Positions 2,422-33,446 of a DNA stretch of 33,446 nucleotides are shown here, in pieces. Each line of letters begins with the position of its first letter. The first letter of the stretch is position 1. Made by a program: the position numbers and the translations under genes. Location of the stretch: contig JAKPNF010000020.1 in NCBI GenBank assembly GCA_029548565.1, positions 1-33,446 on the forward strand, in the 5' to 3' direction. The stretch is from Verrucomicrobiota bacterium (GTDB lineage Bacteria; Verrucomicrobiota; Verrucomicrobiia; Opitutales; JAKPNF01). The notes below the pieces were generated by a model that was not told the DNA's origin, did not search any database, and was given only the letters and a program-made list of their open reading frames with translations.

Positions 2422-2507
2422 AGGATGCGCAGCATCCGTCATCAAAGTTTTTTGGGAAAGGGGGCGCGGGGGAAAGCCCTTTTTTTCAAAAAAGGGTTTT
2501 CCCCCGC
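2422..2507 (+). repeat. Intergenic hairpin repeat, copy 1
   Basis: The element has a 36-base head (2422-2457) that is identical to the reverse complement of 4784-4819. The head contains the small palindrome GGATGC-GCA-GCATCC. A G-rich spacer follows, then a long hairpin: 2466-2485 pairs with 2488-2507 over 20 positions, all paired if one G-T pair is counted. It lies between the convergent ends of the Ppx/GppA and rluD genes and may act as a bidirectional terminator. The head also encodes a spurious peptide starting MRSIRHQ, which should not be annotated as a protein. Confidence 0.85.
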
Positions 2508-2519
2508 ATCCAAATCCAT

Positions 2520-3524
2520 TCATTCCTTCTCCCCGAAATCCTTTTCGATCGCGGCGATGCCTTGTTTAAAATCTTCGGGCAGCGGGGCGATGAAGGTCAT
2601 TTCTTCTTTGGTGACCGGGTGGGTGATGGTCAGGCGTTCGGCGTGGAGCATGACGCGGGGGGCTTTCCAGGGGTCGTTGGGCAGCGGCCGGTCGCCGTAG
2701 AGCGCGTCGCCTAAAATGGGGAAGCCCATGTGCGAGAGGTGCGTGCGGATTTGGTGCGTGCGGCCGGTGTGCAGCCACAGGCGCAGGAATGAAAAATTTT
2801 TGCCAAGATGTTTTTCGACCGCCCAGTCGGTGCGGGCGGGTTTGCCGCCTTCGTTCTCGCGCACGGCCATGCGGGTGCGGTGGGTGGGGTGGCGGTCGAT
2901 GTTGCCGCGCAGCACCCCCGAGAGCAGCGCGGGGGCACCGCGTGTGAGGGCCAAGTATTGCTTGTCGAGCTTGCGGCTGGCAAAGGCGCGCGTCAACGGC
3001 CGGTAGGCGCGGTCGCTTTTGGCGAAGATGATGACGCCGCTGGTTTCCTTGTCCAGACGGTGCACGACGCCCGGGCGGATCTCGCCCGCGTTGGTGGTGA
3101 GATTGCCTTTCGTGTGGTGTAGCAGCGCGTGCACCATCGTGTCCTCGCCGGTGGCGTTGCCTGGATGCACCACCATACCCGGGCGCTTGTTGACGACCAC
3201 GATGTGCTCGTCCTCGTAAAGAATATCGAGCGGAATATCGACCGGCGCCGGGATCGCGATCTTTTGCGCGGGCTCGGTCAAGGTGAGCACCGCCCCCTCG
3301 CTCACGCGCGTTTTTTTAGAGGCGGGCTTGCCGTCCAAAAAGACTTTGCCCTCATCAAAAACCTCCTGCAGCCGCGCGCGAGAGTACTGCGGAAAATGCG
3401 CGGCCAGCAGCTTGTCGGCGCGCTCCATGAACACGCCCTGCGGCACGGTCAGCGTGAGATTTCCACCGTCCGACACGCCCGCGGGCGTCTCGGATTCCAA
3501 AAGTTCGTCGTCGTCGTCGGTCAT
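2520..3524 (-). CDS. rluD: RluD-type 23S rRNA pseudouridine synthase
   Basis: RluA-superfamily enzymes isomerise uridines in rRNA; RluD itself acts on helix 69 of 23S rRNA. The 334-residue protein has an acidic N-terminus, then an S4 RNA-binding domain (about residues 30-80: [20 protein letters not shown]). The catalytic domain follows with [20 protein letters not shown], the active-site motif HRLDKETSG containing the catalytic Asp, the Tyr motif KQYLAL and [20 protein letters not shown]. Its ATG overlaps the stop codon of the upstream aminopeptidase gene (ATGA), so the two are translationally coupled. The gene ends about 13 bases from repeat copy 1. The exact rRNA target cannot be assigned from the sequence, but the S4 domain and length fit RluD best. 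Confidence 0.9.
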
Positions 3525-24741: not shown

Positions 24742-25869
24742 TCAGCGCGCGTCTTTTATCTCGGAGATGTTTTTTGGCAGGCGATAACTGGTACTGCGGC
24801 CGCCGCCGGGGTTTTGGATAAAGATTCCACGTTTCTTCAAATCCTGAATGTCGCGTAGCGCCGAGTCGTTTGAGCACTTGGCCAATTTCGCGTATTTGGA
24901 GGTGTTCATGTGGCCTTCAAAATCATTTTCGAGCATGCGGTTGATGACCAAGCGCTGGCGTTCGTTGGGCGGCTGGCGGTTGATTTTCTCCCAGAGCTGC
25001 GCCTTGAGCAAAACGCCGCCGAGCGTTTTCTCGGCCGTGGCCAGCGCACGGCAAAGGCAGTCCAGAAACCATGCAAGCCAGCCGGTGATGTCGGTGGAGG
25101 CGCGCTGCTGTTTTTCCAAGCGTTCGTAATAGGATTTGCGCTCGGCCTCTATCTGGGTCGAGAGACTGTAAAAGCGCTCCGCGCTGTGGTCGGCGCGCGC
25201 CAACAATAGGTCGCTCATCGCCCGCGCGATGCGCCCGTTGCCGTCCTCGAAAGGATGGATGCTCACAAACCAAAGGTGGGCGATGCCCGCCTTCAAAACG
25301 GGATCAAGATCGTTTGCCTTGTTGAACCATGCGAGAAAATTTTTCATCTCCCGCGCAAGTCTGGCCGCCTGCGGCGCCTCAAAGTGAACGCGCTCGCGGC
25401 CGATAGGGCCGGAAACCACGCGCATCGCTCCGGCACGCGCCGGGCGCCACGCGCCCACGGTGATGCGCTGCAATCCGTTGCGCCCTGTCGGAAACAGCGC
25501 GCTGTGCCAGCCAAACAGACGTTCCTTTGTCAGCGGTGATGAAAAATTGCGCGTGGCATCAAGCATCATTTCGACGACACCTTCCACGTGGCGGCTCTCG
25601 GGAACAAGCCCTGCCACCTTCATCCCCAGCCGACGCGCGATCGAGGAGCGCACTTCGTCGCAGTCCAAGCGCTCCCCCTCGATGGCCGAAGATTTGACGA
25701 CGTCGCTGGTGAGCGTGCTGAGGCTCGCCTCTTGTTTCAGCCCAAAGCCCAGCGCCTGCATTCGCCCAAGCAAATGCCCCTGCCGGTGACGAATGTCCGC
25801 CAGCTTCGTGGCGATCGCCTCTGCACCCCATGTGAAACGGGGCCAGTCTTTGTGTTCATGTATCCACAT
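24742..25869 (-). CDS. Fic-family protein (class II) with C-terminal winged helix
   Basis: Fic proteins transfer AMP or other nucleotide groups onto target proteins. The 375-residue protein has an N-terminal domain of the DUF4172 kind (MWIHEHKDWPRFTWGAEAIA). The inhibitory helix motif SSAIEG (Ser60xxxGlu64-Gly65) places it in class II, with self-inhibition built in. The complete catalytic motif HPFEDGNGRIARA is at His205-Ala217. The C-terminal 65 residues (NTSKYAKLAKCSNDSALRDI) look like a winged helix that could bind DNA. Upstream are a good promoter and four copies of one short motif, so it may repress itself. The pseudo-synthase gene follows. Confidence 0.9.
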   Translation of the reverse strand: MWIHEHKDWPRFTWGAEAIATKLADIRHRQGHLLGRMQALGFGLKQEASLSTLTSDVVKSSAIEGERLDCDEVRSSIARRLGMKVAGLVPESRHVEGVVEMMLDATRNFSSPLTKERLFGWHSALFPTGRNGLQRITVGAWRPARAGAMRVVSGPIGRERVHFEAPQAARLAREMKNFLAWFNKANDLDPVLKAGIAHLWFVSIHPFEDGNGRIARAMSDLLLARADHSAERFYSLSTQIEAERKSYYERLEKQQRASTDITGWLAWFLDCLCRALATAEKTLGGVLLKAQLWEKINRQPPNERQRLVINRMLENDFEGHMNTSKYAKLAKCSNDSALRDIQDLKKRGIFIQNPGGGRSTSYRLPKNISEIKDAR

Positions 25870-29132: not shown

Positions 29133-30506
29133 TTATTTTCTGCGCCGCACGGCCAAGGCCAAACTCAATAGCGCCAGCAACGCCGCGCTCAGGGCCGGTT
29201 CAGGGACGGGGGTGACAGTCAAAAACAGGTTGTTTCCGATCCATTCAAAATTGGCTTCATAACCTTCCATCAGGCCGTTGAGTTGCCACACGATGTCTTT
29301 GACCGATTGGTCGACATCCGAGGCCACTTCGGCGATCCACACTTGCGTGTCGACAGAGACGGCGCCGAGGTTGTCCAGCGTGACGGCGTAGCCGCCCAGC
29401 ACATCGAGCGACAACGCGCCGGCGTTGAAAATCGGGCTGGAGGCGTCCGCCAGCGACAGGTCCGCGAAAACTTCAAGCGTGCCGTTGGCGCCCACCGAGA
29501 GCGTCTGGCCGATCGAGACATTGTCCGTGGCGTTGGAAATGCCCAAATAGCCTTTGCCCGTGCGCACGCCCACATTCACCGCACCCGTAAAAGCGGCATT
29601 GCCGCCCGTCAGGTACATTGACCCGGTTCCATAATGACCCAGCGTGGCGGTTGACGCGACCAGCGAACCGCCGCTGACCGTCATCGTGCCCGTGGCCGCG
29701 CTGCCGCTGCCCACAAGCAGCGCGCCGGCCAAAGTGACGGCGCCGCCGTTGACGTGCAGCGAGCCTTTGCCCCAGTAGCCCACGGACGCCGTGGAGCCGA
29801 GCGCCAGCGAGCCGCTGGACACCGTCATCACGCCCGAGGAGTTGGTGTACATGCCCAGCGAAAAAGTGCCGCCGACCGTGGCGGTACCGCCGTTGACATG
29901 CACCGTGCCCGAACCGGAATAGCCCACGCTAAAAGAACTGTTCATCCGCATCGTGCCGCCTGTCAGGGTCAGCGTGCCCGTGCCGGGTGCGCTGTAGCCG
30001 AGCACCACGGGGCCCATCGTGGCCGTGCCGCCGCTGATCAGCAGCGAGCCCGTGCCGTTGGTGCCGATGTAGGAATACGAGCTGACGCTCAGCGTGCCGC
30101 CGGAAAGGGTCACCTGCCCCACCACCCCGCTGCCCGTGCCTATGAAAAAGCGCCCGAGCCTGGCCTCGCCATTGCTGATGAGCATGGAACCGGTCGAACC
30201 GGTGCCGTAGCCCACGTAAAAATAATTGCTGGTGCCGGATTTGAGCAGCCCGCCATCCACATGCAACGAGCCCTCGCCGTAGCGCCCCAGGTAAAAGTAA
30301 TTGCTCGTCACGCTCAAGGTGCCGCTGGAAAGGGTGACCACCCCGCTGCTGCCCGCGTTGGAGCCAACATGGATGCTGCCGGCCGTCACCTCGCCGCCGG
30401 AGATACACAGCGTGCCCGTGCCGCTGACTCCCACATTAAAGGTGTTGTAGGTGCTCACGCTCACGGAGCCGCCGCTGACCGTCACCACGCCGCGCGAGCC
30501 GGTCAT
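29133..30506 (-). CDS. PEP-CTERM beta-strand-repeat surface protein, C-terminal part
   Basis: A frame of 457 residues built of repeats of about 22-25 residues of the type GTGSLLISGGTATMGPVVLG, typical of autotransporter-associated beta-strand repeats that fold as a beta-solenoid outside the cell. The C-terminus is a PEP-CTERM sorting signal: VPEPALSAALLALLSL, then a hydrophobic helix end and basic RRRK. Such proteins are cut and sorted by exosortases, and one is encoded at 32533-33446. The apparent ATG at 30506 lies inside a 31-bp duplication and is not preceded by a signal peptide. The true start is the fragment at 30517-30906, out of frame because of the duplication. With one unit removed the gene reads as one protein of about 580 residues. 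Confidence 0.75.
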   Translation of the reverse strand: MTGSRGVVTVSGGSVSVSTYNTFNVGVSGTGTLCISGGEVTAGSIHVGSNAGSSGVVTLSSGTLSVTSNYFYLGRYGEGSLHVDGGLLKSGTSNYFYVGYGTGSTGSMLISNGEARLGRFFIGTGSGVVGQVTLSGGTLSVSSYSYIGTNGTGSLLISGGTATMGPVVLGYSAPGTGTLTLTGGTMRMNSSFSVGYSGSGTVHVNGGTATVGGTFSLGMYTNSSGVMTVSSGSLALGSTASVGYWGKGSLHVNGGAVTLAGALLVGSGSAATGTMTVSGGSLVASTATLGHYGTGSMYLTGGNAAFTGAVNVGVRTGKGYLGISNATDNVSIGQTLSVGANGTLEVFADLSLADASSPIFNAGALSLDVLGGYAVTLDNLGAVSVDTQVWIAEVASDVDQSVKDIVWQLNGLMEGYEANFEWIGNNLFLTVTPVPEPALSAALLALLSLALAVRRRK

Positions 30507-30550
30507 GTTTCCGATGTTAGCCGCGCGAGCCGGTCATGTTTCCGATGTTA
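30489..30550. repeat. Perfect 31-bp tandem duplication inside the PEP-CTERM gene
   Basis: Positions 30489-30519 and 30520-30550 are identical and adjacent. Since 31 is not a multiple of three, the second unit shifts the frame: the upstream part stops at TAA (30519-30517) and the downstream part has an ATG ten bases later (30506). Removing one unit makes the combined coding length exactly divisible by three. Confidence 0.95.
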
Positions 30551-30894
30551 AAGTGCATGCTGGGCGTCATCGCCCCGCCGCTGATGAGCATGGAGCCGCT
30601 GCCATAATGCCCCACATGCACATTGCCGGCTCTCACCGCGCCGCCGGAAATCGTCATCGTGCCCACGCCGGCGGAATTGTTGCCCAAACTCAGGATATTG
30701 CTGGCCGTCAGCGCGCCGTCGGACACCGTCAGGGCACCCGCGCGCGTGTCGCCCACCAGCACATTGCTGGTGTTGACCGAGGTCGTCCCTCCCGTGATGC
30801 TCGGAGACACATTGCCGCTGGCGGTAATCGACGCGCACAGCAAACCACTTCCCGACGCGCACAGCAGCAGGCTCAGCGCCCATTTGTTAAGCAT
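30517..30894 (-). CDS. PEP-CTERM surface protein, N-terminal fragment
   Basis: This fragment of about 125 residues starts with a signal peptide (MLNKWALSLLLCASGSGLLC, then AS) and then the same beta-strand repeats as the next frame (LTVSDGALTASNILSLGNNS, GTMTISGGAVRAGNVHVGHY). It ends NIGNMTGSRG followed by a stop created by the 31-bp duplication. The next frame begins MTGSRGVV, so the two parts would join at this point. A GTG at 30906 (MIKN) is the alternative start. No ribosome binding site is visible. The fragment alone would be exported but not anchored by the sorting signal. Reinitiation at the ATG ten bases downstream is possible, but that product would lack a signal peptide. Confidence 0.7.
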   Translation of the reverse strand: MLNKWALSLLLCASGSGLLCASITASGNVSPSITGGTTSVNTSNVLVGDTRAGALTVSDGALTASNILSLGNNSAGVGTMTISGGAVRAGNVHVGHYGSGSMLISGGAMTPSMHFNIGNMTGSRG

Positions 30895-30907
30895 ATTTTT
30901 GATCACT

Positions 30908-31056: not shown

Positions 31057-32517
31057 CTATCTGCGAGCACTGCGCGCCCACTGGTAGACCTGCTCGTATT
31101 GGGCGGCGGAGCGTTTCCAGGAGAAATCGCGGCTCATGGCGTTTTGGCGCAGGGAGGCGAAATCTTCGGGACGGTCGTAGTAGGTGGAGTTCGCCCAACC
31201 GATCGCGTAGTACAGCGCGTGGGCGCTGGGTTCTTGAAAGAGAAAGCCCGTGCCCTGCCCCGTGTTTTCCTGGTATTGTTCGACCGTGTCGACCAGCCCG
31301 CCCGTGGCGCGCACGATCGGCAGCGTGCCGTAGGCCATCGAGTACATTTGGTTCAGTCCGCACGGCTCGAAGCGGCTAGGCATGAGAAAGAAATCCGCGC
31401 CCGCCTCGATCAGGTGCGAGAGCGCCTCGTCGTAGCCGATATGCACGCCGACTTTGCCCGGGTGATAGGCCGCCAGTTCGCGGAAACGGTTTTCCAACGC
31501 GCTGTCGCCCGCGCCGAGGATCACCAATTGCAGGCGCATGTTTTTCAAAAGCCCCTCGGCAATGTCGGCCAGCCAGTCGAGTCCTTTTTGGTCGTACAGC
31601 CGCGCGATCGCCGCGAATATCGGGACAGTGTGGTCGCGATCCAGATCGAAATGCGTTTGCAAAATTTCTTTGCAATAGCCCTTGCCGTCCAGTTCAAAAC
31701 GCGAATAGCGCATCGGCAGCAACGAGTCGGTCTGCGGGTTCCACACCTGCGTGTCGATGCCGTTCAAAACCCCGACCAGATCGCCCGCGCGAAAACGCAA
31801 CAACCCGTCCAGCCCGCAGCCATATTCCGACGACTTAATCTCGCGCGCGTAGTTGGGCGAGACGGTTGTGATCTTGCTGGCGTGGTACAGCCCGCCTTTG
31901 AGCATGTTAAAATTGCCCAGCGCCTCGAAGCCGTCGGCCTTGAACAAATCGGCAGGCAGGCCGCTCATCGCAAAGCTCTCCTTTGAAAAAATGCCCTGAT
32001 GCTGCAAGTTGTGAATGGTCATGACGCTGGCGGCCTGGCCAAGGTCGTTGCCGCGTTCAGTCGTGTTCAAATAAGCGGGCGCAAGCGCGCTTGTCCAGTC
32101 GTGGCAGTGCACAACGTCGGGGTACCACAGCAGCGCGTGGCACAAGTCCATCGCCGCGCGGCTCATGAAGGTGAAGCGCTCACAATTGTCGCCATGCCCG
32201 CCCCAAGGGCCCTCGTAAATCTCAGGGCGCCCGAAATATTTTTCGTGCTCGAGGAAATAAACTTTTGATTCCGGCGCGCCGGGAATCCGCTCCTCCCACA
32301 CGCGGGCGTACTGTTCAAACCCGCCCAGGTGCACTATCAGCGGCTCAAGCGCCACGCGGCGCTGCGCGGAGGGTTTCACACTACCGTACAGCGGCGTGAC
32401 CACCCGCACGTCGTGCCCCATCAGCGAAAGTTCCTTGGACAACGAACCCGCCATGTCGCCCAAGCCCCCCACTTTGGAAAAGGGAGCCACCTCGGGAGAG
32501 ATCATCAAAATTTTCAT
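31057..32517 (-). CDS. glgA: Glycogen synthase (ADP-glucose type)
   Basis: GlgA (GT5) extends alpha-1,4-glucan chains using ADP-glucose. The 486-residue protein begins MKILMISPEVAPFSKVGGLG, with the KxGGLGD substrate loop at residues 15-21. HDWTSALAPAYL and TIHNLQHQGIFSKE occur in the N-terminal lobe. The C-terminal lobe has the donor-binding FEPCGLNQMYSMAYGTLPIV followed by TGGLVDTVEQYQ. It starts 15 bases after the exosortase stop and is probably cotranscribed with it. Other glycogen genes (glgB, glgC, glgP) are not in the window. A cre-like palindrome near its stop was considered and rejected. Confidence 0.94.
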   Translation of the reverse strand: MKILMISPEVAPFSKVGGLGDMAGSLSKELSLMGHDVRVVTPLYGSVKPSAQRRVALEPLIVHLGGFEQYARVWEERIPGAPESKVYFLEHEKYFGRPEIYEGPWGGHGDNCERFTFMSRAAMDLCHALLWYPDVVHCHDWTSALAPAYLNTTERGNDLGQAASVMTIHNLQHQGIFSKESFAMSGLPADLFKADGFEALGNFNMLKGGLYHASKITTVSPNYAREIKSSEYGCGLDGLLRFRAGDLVGVLNGIDTQVWNPQTDSLLPMRYSRFELDGKGYCKEILQTHFDLDRDHTVPIFAAIARLYDQKGLDWLADIAEGLLKNMRLQLVILGAGDSALENRFRELAAYHPGKVGVHIGYDEALSHLIEAGADFFLMPSRFEPCGLNQMYSMAYGTLPIVRATGGLVDTVEQYQENTGQGTGFLFQEPSAHALYYAIGWANSTYYDRPEDFASLRQNAMSRDFSWKRSAAQYEQVYQWARSARR

Positions 32518-32532
32518 GCGCGGAAAAATTTT

Positions 32533-33446
32533 TTATTCGCAAGGCGTTTGTGAATCAGCCAACTCCTCGTCCGTGGGTGGCGGGGGAATCCACTGTTTGG
32601 TCATCAGGTGCACGAGCACCAGCAACAGCACGCAAGTCACGCCCAAAACGGCGTAGCCTGTCACGTCGTGAATGGTACCCTCGATCGCCTGAGGGCCCTC
32701 GTTGTAGGCCACCGCCGTCAGGATGATGCTGCGGATGACGTTCGTGCACACGGCCAATATCCCGGCCATGACGACCAGAAAAATCTTTTTGCCCCAGCCC
32801 TCGAAATAAATCGCCGCCAGAAAACAGCCGGCGAACAAGCAGCCCGTCAGCGAGCGGATGCCCGAGCACGCGTCGGCCACGCCGACATTGCCCTTGGGCA
32901 AGACGAGCACGTTGCCCTCCTGCGTGATGGGGTAGCCAAGAAAGTCAAACAACCCGAAGACGACGGTGGTCACCACCAGCAGCAGCCAGGTTTTTATGCG
33001 CGTTTCCAATAGCACCAGCAGCGGCGCGGAAATCAGCCAGGCAAAGGACGGGAACCAGAACTGGTTGACCAACTGCAATCGCCGCGGCACCCCCACGGGG
33101 CGCCCGCGCGCGTCGGCCGCGCTGATCACGTAGACCACGCTCATCCAGTAAAAGCCAAAGCCCAGCGTCATCATCACGGTGCTAAACTCGTTGATGCCGG
33201 TGATCAGGCGGAAAAAGACCCCGATCATGAACATGATCAGCGCGGCAAAAAGCCCCGTGTAAAAGGTCAGGCCGAAAAACGCGCGTTTGGCGGGCTTATC
33301 CGGCGGGTCGGGCGCGGCATTGGGCTCGCCGACGAGCACCGAGCGGATTTTTCCCCAGCGCTCGTGCACCACGTACATCACGAAAATCGAGACCAGAAAG
33401 CCGAACTCGTAGTCCTCGCGGTTGAGCCAGTAGTACATCTGGTCGT
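32533..33446 (-). CDS. Exosortase/archaeosortase-family protein (N-terminus outside window)
   Basis: Exosortases are membrane cysteine proteases that process PEP-CTERM proteins for export and anchoring. The frame is open to the right edge, so the start is missing; about 303 residues are seen. Several hydrophobic helices are present. The catalytic set is complete: Cys in VADACSGIRSLTGC, Arg in NVIRSIILTAVAYNEG, and His in IEGTIHDVTGYAVLG. The N-terminal motif DYEFGFLVSIFVMYVV matches the usual start of the conserved domain. A cytoplasmic stretch is seen around GEPNAAPDPPDKPAKRAF. glgA follows after 15 bases. The likely client in the window is the PEP-CTERM protein at 29133-30906. Confidence 0.88.
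   Translation of the reverse strand, partial: DQMYYWLNREDYEFGFLVSIFVMYVVHERWGKIRSVLVGEPNAAPDPPDKPAKRAFFGLTFYTGLFAALIMFMIGVFFRLITGINEFSTVMMTLGFGFYWMSVVYVISAADARGRPVGVPRRLQLVNQFWFPSFAWLISAPLLVLLETRIKTWLLLVVTTVVFGLFDFLGYPITQEGNVLVLPKGNVGVADACSGIRSLTGCLFAGCFLAAIYFEGWGKKIFLVVMAGILAVCTNVIRSIILTAVAYNEGPQAIEGTIHDVTGYAVLGVTCVLLLVLVHLMTKQWIPPPPTDEELADSQTPCE

Follow-up and report, generated by a model that had tools for sequence, protein, structure and literature searches.

The window analysed here, 33,446 bp in length, spans the whole of contig C16, one of 170 in the 2.14-Mb draft genome of an uncultured Opitutales-like bacterium. On its minus strand lies a split gene for a predicted PEP-CTERM surface protein, in which an extra 31 bp parts the piece that carries the signal peptide from the piece that carries the sorting signal. 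The upstream piece (30517..30894, minus strand) encodes 125 residues from an ATG at 30894, the more likely start, or 129 residues from a GTG at 30906. It begins with the signal peptide MLNKWALSLLLCASGSGLLCAS, continues with two to three T5SS/PEP-CTERM repeats, and ends on TAA. The downstream piece (29133..30506, minus strand) encodes 457 residues of T5SS/PEP-CTERM repeats and lacks a signal peptide of its own; its C-terminal end, VPEPALSAALLALLSLALAVRRRK, is a sorting signal of the VPEP-transmembrane-RRRK type.

Both pieces scored above the cut-off of 23 for TIGR04393, the T5SS/PEP-CTERM repeat (24.7 bits upstream, 70.9 bits downstream). The sorting signal scored 15.9 bits for TIGR02595, just below the cut-off of 16; the PEP motif, the hydrophobic stretch and the basic end are all present on reading, and this ending is common to many paralogues. 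Neither piece has a Pfam match. Taken alone, the downstream piece was predicted by AlphaFold2 from the single sequence to form a beta-solenoid, with a mean pLDDT of 81 and mostly above 90 over residues 20-310. A structure search of the PDB yielded nothing significant (best E 0.02), only a weak likeness to other beta-solenoids. The duplication junction falls within a solenoid repeat, from which we infer that the two pieces were once one protein.

Exosortases are the enzyme class that processes PEP-CTERM proteins, and a gene for one (EpsH family; 32533..33438, minus strand; PF09721 at 5e-46; TIGR04178 at 61.9 bits against a cut-off of 23) is found one gene away from the broken gene. The gene between them, downstream of the exosortase gene, is glgA, which encodes a glycogen/starch synthase (31057..32517, minus strand; PF08323 at 2e-78) that is 59% identical to the closest named GlgA. 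The exosortase gene and glgA adjoin here (31057-33438) and in about 20 Opitutales loci examined, a conserved pairing of a protein-sorting enzyme with glycogen synthase. Just two of those other loci, L079 and L078, have a PEP-CTERM gene next to glgA, and in L078 it is on the opposite strand. Elsewhere in the window, a Fic/DUF4172 protein is encoded at 24742-25869 within a run of housekeeping genes.

A perfect 31-bp tandem duplication breaks the frame

Tandem Repeats Finder (TRF) reported a single array at 30489-30550, with a period of 31, 2.0 copies and a 100% match, and direct comparison established that both 31-mers are identical letter for letter. From base composition only, such a repeat would be expected by chance about 2e-14 times in the window. 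In the reading direction, the first unit (30520..30550, minus strand) is in phase with the upstream frame and the second (30489..30519, minus strand) with the downstream frame; the first base of the second unit begins the TAA stop at 30519-30517. The downstream ATG, at 30506, follows that stop by ten bases.

By frame arithmetic, a single unit gives an open frame of 576 residues when translation starts at the ATG and 580 when it starts at the GTG. At each higher copy number from two to six, the frame ends after residue 125, at the same codon, because the stop arises where the second unit begins. Further expansion therefore never restores the frame, and a single unit is the only ON copy number. 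The original prediction, made from the DNA alone, had described two identical and adjacent units, a signal peptide upstream and a sorting signal downstream, an exact joining of the frames at about 580 residues on loss of one unit, and an ATG ten bases after the new stop. The TRF and exact comparisons, the open reading frames with their translations, and the frame arithmetic agree with it in each of these respects. As assembled, the signal peptide and the sorting signal lie in different frames and not in the one frame of a PEP-CTERM sorted protein. The locus has the form of a duplication-type loss-of-function allele, in that a perfect, short tandem duplication breaks the frame and loss of one copy regains it, the restoration being a matter of frame arithmetic only.

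Direct comparison of the flanks with the unit found zero matching bases on either side, so the duplication lacks the bordering short direct repeats that often mediate duplications of this type (PMC4169377). Our sample of the genome comprised about 906 kb of readable sequence in 81 stretches, from which ten short N-masked contigs had been left out. Within it, no other exact tandem duplication has a unit of at least 19 bp, and the next longest units are 18 and 14 bp. Comparable surveys found one such duplication, with a 22-bp unit, in about 0.98 Mb of related and other loci, and another, with a 27-bp unit, in about 0.76 Mb sampled from two further genomes of the order. Exact tandem duplications with units of 18, 22 and 27 bp lie at L222 16091-16128 (this genome), L078 7509-7554 and L232 17257-17312, respectively. 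The 31-mer is absent from viral contigs.

The two pieces carry no visible sign of decay. Both have a GC content of 0.825 at third codon positions, and there is no second stop in the 457-codon downstream piece, where about 1 extra stop would be expected at 3% divergence and 3.3 at 10%. Together, these observations make the break look young. The identity of the units sets no more than a loose bound on their divergence, since 31 identical bases would be retained with a chance of 20% at 5% divergence and 4% at 10%. A young duplication fits these sequence features, though not decisively.

Interrupted members of the PEP-CTERM family

Family members were counted with a regular expression and reading by eye, and the frames at each break were likewise read by eye. 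The sampled 906 kb contains 48 frames with a PEP-CTERM ending; five that reach the end of a stretch and one doubtful case were left out, giving 42 assessable frames. A signal peptide lies in the same frame as the ending in 32 of these, and the other 10 are interrupted. Besides the gene in C16 with its 31-bp duplication, they include C37 (L151, about 2500-2650, minus strand), which has both an in-frame TAG and a frameshift at the six-A run that immediately follows its start codon. C106 and C154 are each interrupted by a TAG, C89 by a TAA, and C118, C161, C60, C12 and C140 by small frameshifts. The lesions of these nine other broken paralogues are thus nonsense codons or small frameshifts, and none is a tandem duplication. 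The six-A run of C37, taken alone, would be a classical slippage site.

Two further genomes of the order were sampled in part, and all 22 PEP-CTERM genes in those stretches are intact (Fisher p = 0.012 against 10 of 42). A second comparison set, about 54 other genes in this genome, comprises 19 genes of the window, 15 full-length sulfatases and about 20 ABC proteins, and none is interrupted (p = 1.3e-4). Both sets are small, and the domain-based controls do not span whole genes, being blind to a frameshift outside the domain. The sulfatases, ABC domains and acetyltransferases of this genome contain no internal stops. A coding-potential scan of the sample was also tried as a control and was dropped as too noisy, as antisense and operon junctions were flagged while known cases escaped it. 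For the paralogues with in-frame stops, stop-codon reassignment was rejected, given that both TAG and TAA occur in the broken genes and that the sulfatase, ABC and acetyltransferase families are free of in-frame stops. The estimated completeness of the genome, 97.07%, argues against general frame errors.

Discussion

PEP-CTERM beta-solenoid surface proteins form a large family in this genome, and we consider it probable that the duplication is a recent spontaneous loss-of-function allele of one member. With 31 bp added, the frame shifts and a TAA is formed as the second unit begins, so that one product would be an exported fragment of 125 residues without a sorting signal. The other, at most, would be a reinitiated protein of 457 residues that lacks a signal peptide and would stay in the cytoplasm. 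The full-length protein would then be absent from the surface. Slippage or recombination between the identical units could remove one of them and bring back the frame of 576 residues; any tandem duplication shares this revertibility, which does not amount to an evolved switch. On the simplest reading, this large and probably redundant family has lost several members in the lineage by different mutations, the duplication being one of them. Recent inactivation had been named as an alternative in the original prediction, and we now favor it, as the nine other sampled family members with unrelated nonsense or small frameshift lesions point in this direction. A counterpoint is that the C16 lesion differs in kind from these nine, no other broken member having a tandem duplication.

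The same prediction had allowed for an assembly error. An artefact of assembly or sequencing, in which a failed merging of overlaps gave the assembly a second unit that the genome lacks, is unlikely but deserves to be kept in view. The draft is divided into 170 contigs, and an array of exactly 2.0 copies with no homology at its ends has the look of an unmerged overlap. Exact 141-bp overlaps link three pairs of the sampled contig ends, which suggests that the assembly was made as a de Bruijn graph at k=141. A single word of that length would hold all 62 bp of the array, which speaks against an unmerged overlap as its origin. A unit length of 31 is also not a step in the usual k list of MEGAHIT, the assembler whose list ends at 141. 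A systematic artefact should recur, whereas no other tandem duplication of 31 bp or similar size is found in the 906 kb, and the array lies about 2.9 kb from the closest contig end. The 141-bp overlaps and the lack of recurrence make an assembly error less likely.

The principal suggestion of the original prediction was a candidate ON/OFF switch giving phase variation. For this, the second 31-bp unit would have to be gained and lost so frequently that the surface protein is switched OFF and ON within a population. We find this improbable. The gene does encode a predicted surface protein and loss of one unit restores its frame exactly, but the frame is open at a single unit only and two to six units all end at the same codon. 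Arrays in which ON recurs at every third copy number behave differently. Alternation between ON and OFF with copy-number change in both directions, as at a contingency locus, is not what we find here, with one ON state and OFF states at two to six units. Simple-sequence-repeat contingency loci, as reviewed in PMC11868660, resemble the C16 gene in that a surface factor has its reading frame set by a tandem repeat within the coding sequence; they differ in having many short units and several ON copy numbers, where C16 has two 31-bp units and one. The site is also unmarked for recurrent duplication, as there is no array and zero end bases match. Similar mutable elements in related genes were not found in the 906 kb: this is the sole exact tandem duplication with a unit of at least 19 bp, none occurs in the other broken paralogues, and C37 has a nonsense codon as well as its six-A frameshift. 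Moreover, a single allele is seen, in one draft assembly. The proposed switch is thus not supported, given one ON copy number, no bases shared at the unit ends and no similar element in the other family members examined.

Precedents for revertible duplications do exist, and they lend the switch some credit. Spontaneous tandem duplications in the pneumococcal genes cap3A, cap8E and tts (Waite et al. 2001, 2003; as cited in PMC4022640) have been called phase variation. As at C16, a short, perfect tandem duplication in coding sequence inactivates a surface structure, and precise loss of one copy restores it. Unlike C16, the capsule duplications reportedly vary between isolates and their reversion has been observed, whereas C16 offers a single allele of a PEP-CTERM protein gene in an uncultured bacterium, and no reverted form is seen. 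Burkholderia thailandensis provides a second case, the de novo tandem repeats in its penA gene (PMC4169377), which are likewise of two units and similar size, and revertible by slippage without special sequences; those repeats kept the frame and changed enzyme specificity under drug selection, while the frame is broken in C16. According to the same paper, penA duplications of 9-60 bp revert by general pathways, at 3.6e-5 for a 60-bp duplication and 9.3e-7 for a shorter one. By analogy, a reversion rate in or near this range is plausible here.

A broader form of the idea would treat the dozens of surface solenoids as a contingency repertoire, a changing fraction of which is silenced by mutation, with some lesions, such as a revertible duplication, permitting later re-exposure by a clone; we regard this as quite unlikely. 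Least credible of all is a functional split. It would depend on translational coupling through the ATG at 30506, which is preceded by GGA and lies ten bases past the stop, and would yield two proteins by design. Against it, the junction lies inside a solenoid repeat, the downstream protein has a sorting signal without a signal peptide and so could not be exported and sorted, and both signals lie in one frame in 32 paralogues of this genome and in 22 from the two others.

A recent loss of function therefore remains our preferred reading, and by itself the duplication is nothing out of the ordinary, a loss-of-function allele that can revert. The case also carries a practical lesson, namely that the copy numbers that are ON should be checked before a frame-restoring duplication is called a switch. 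In its repeat family (TIGR04393), its terminal signals including TIGR02595-type sorting, an exosortase (PF09721) one gene away and its many paralogues, the C16 gene resembles other systems of this kind; it differs from them in that this copy is interrupted, as is nearly a quarter of the assessable family in this genome. That about a quarter of the sampled, assessable PEP-CTERM genes are broken while other genes are apparently intact suggests either rapid turnover of the displayed proteins or relaxed selection on a redundant set.
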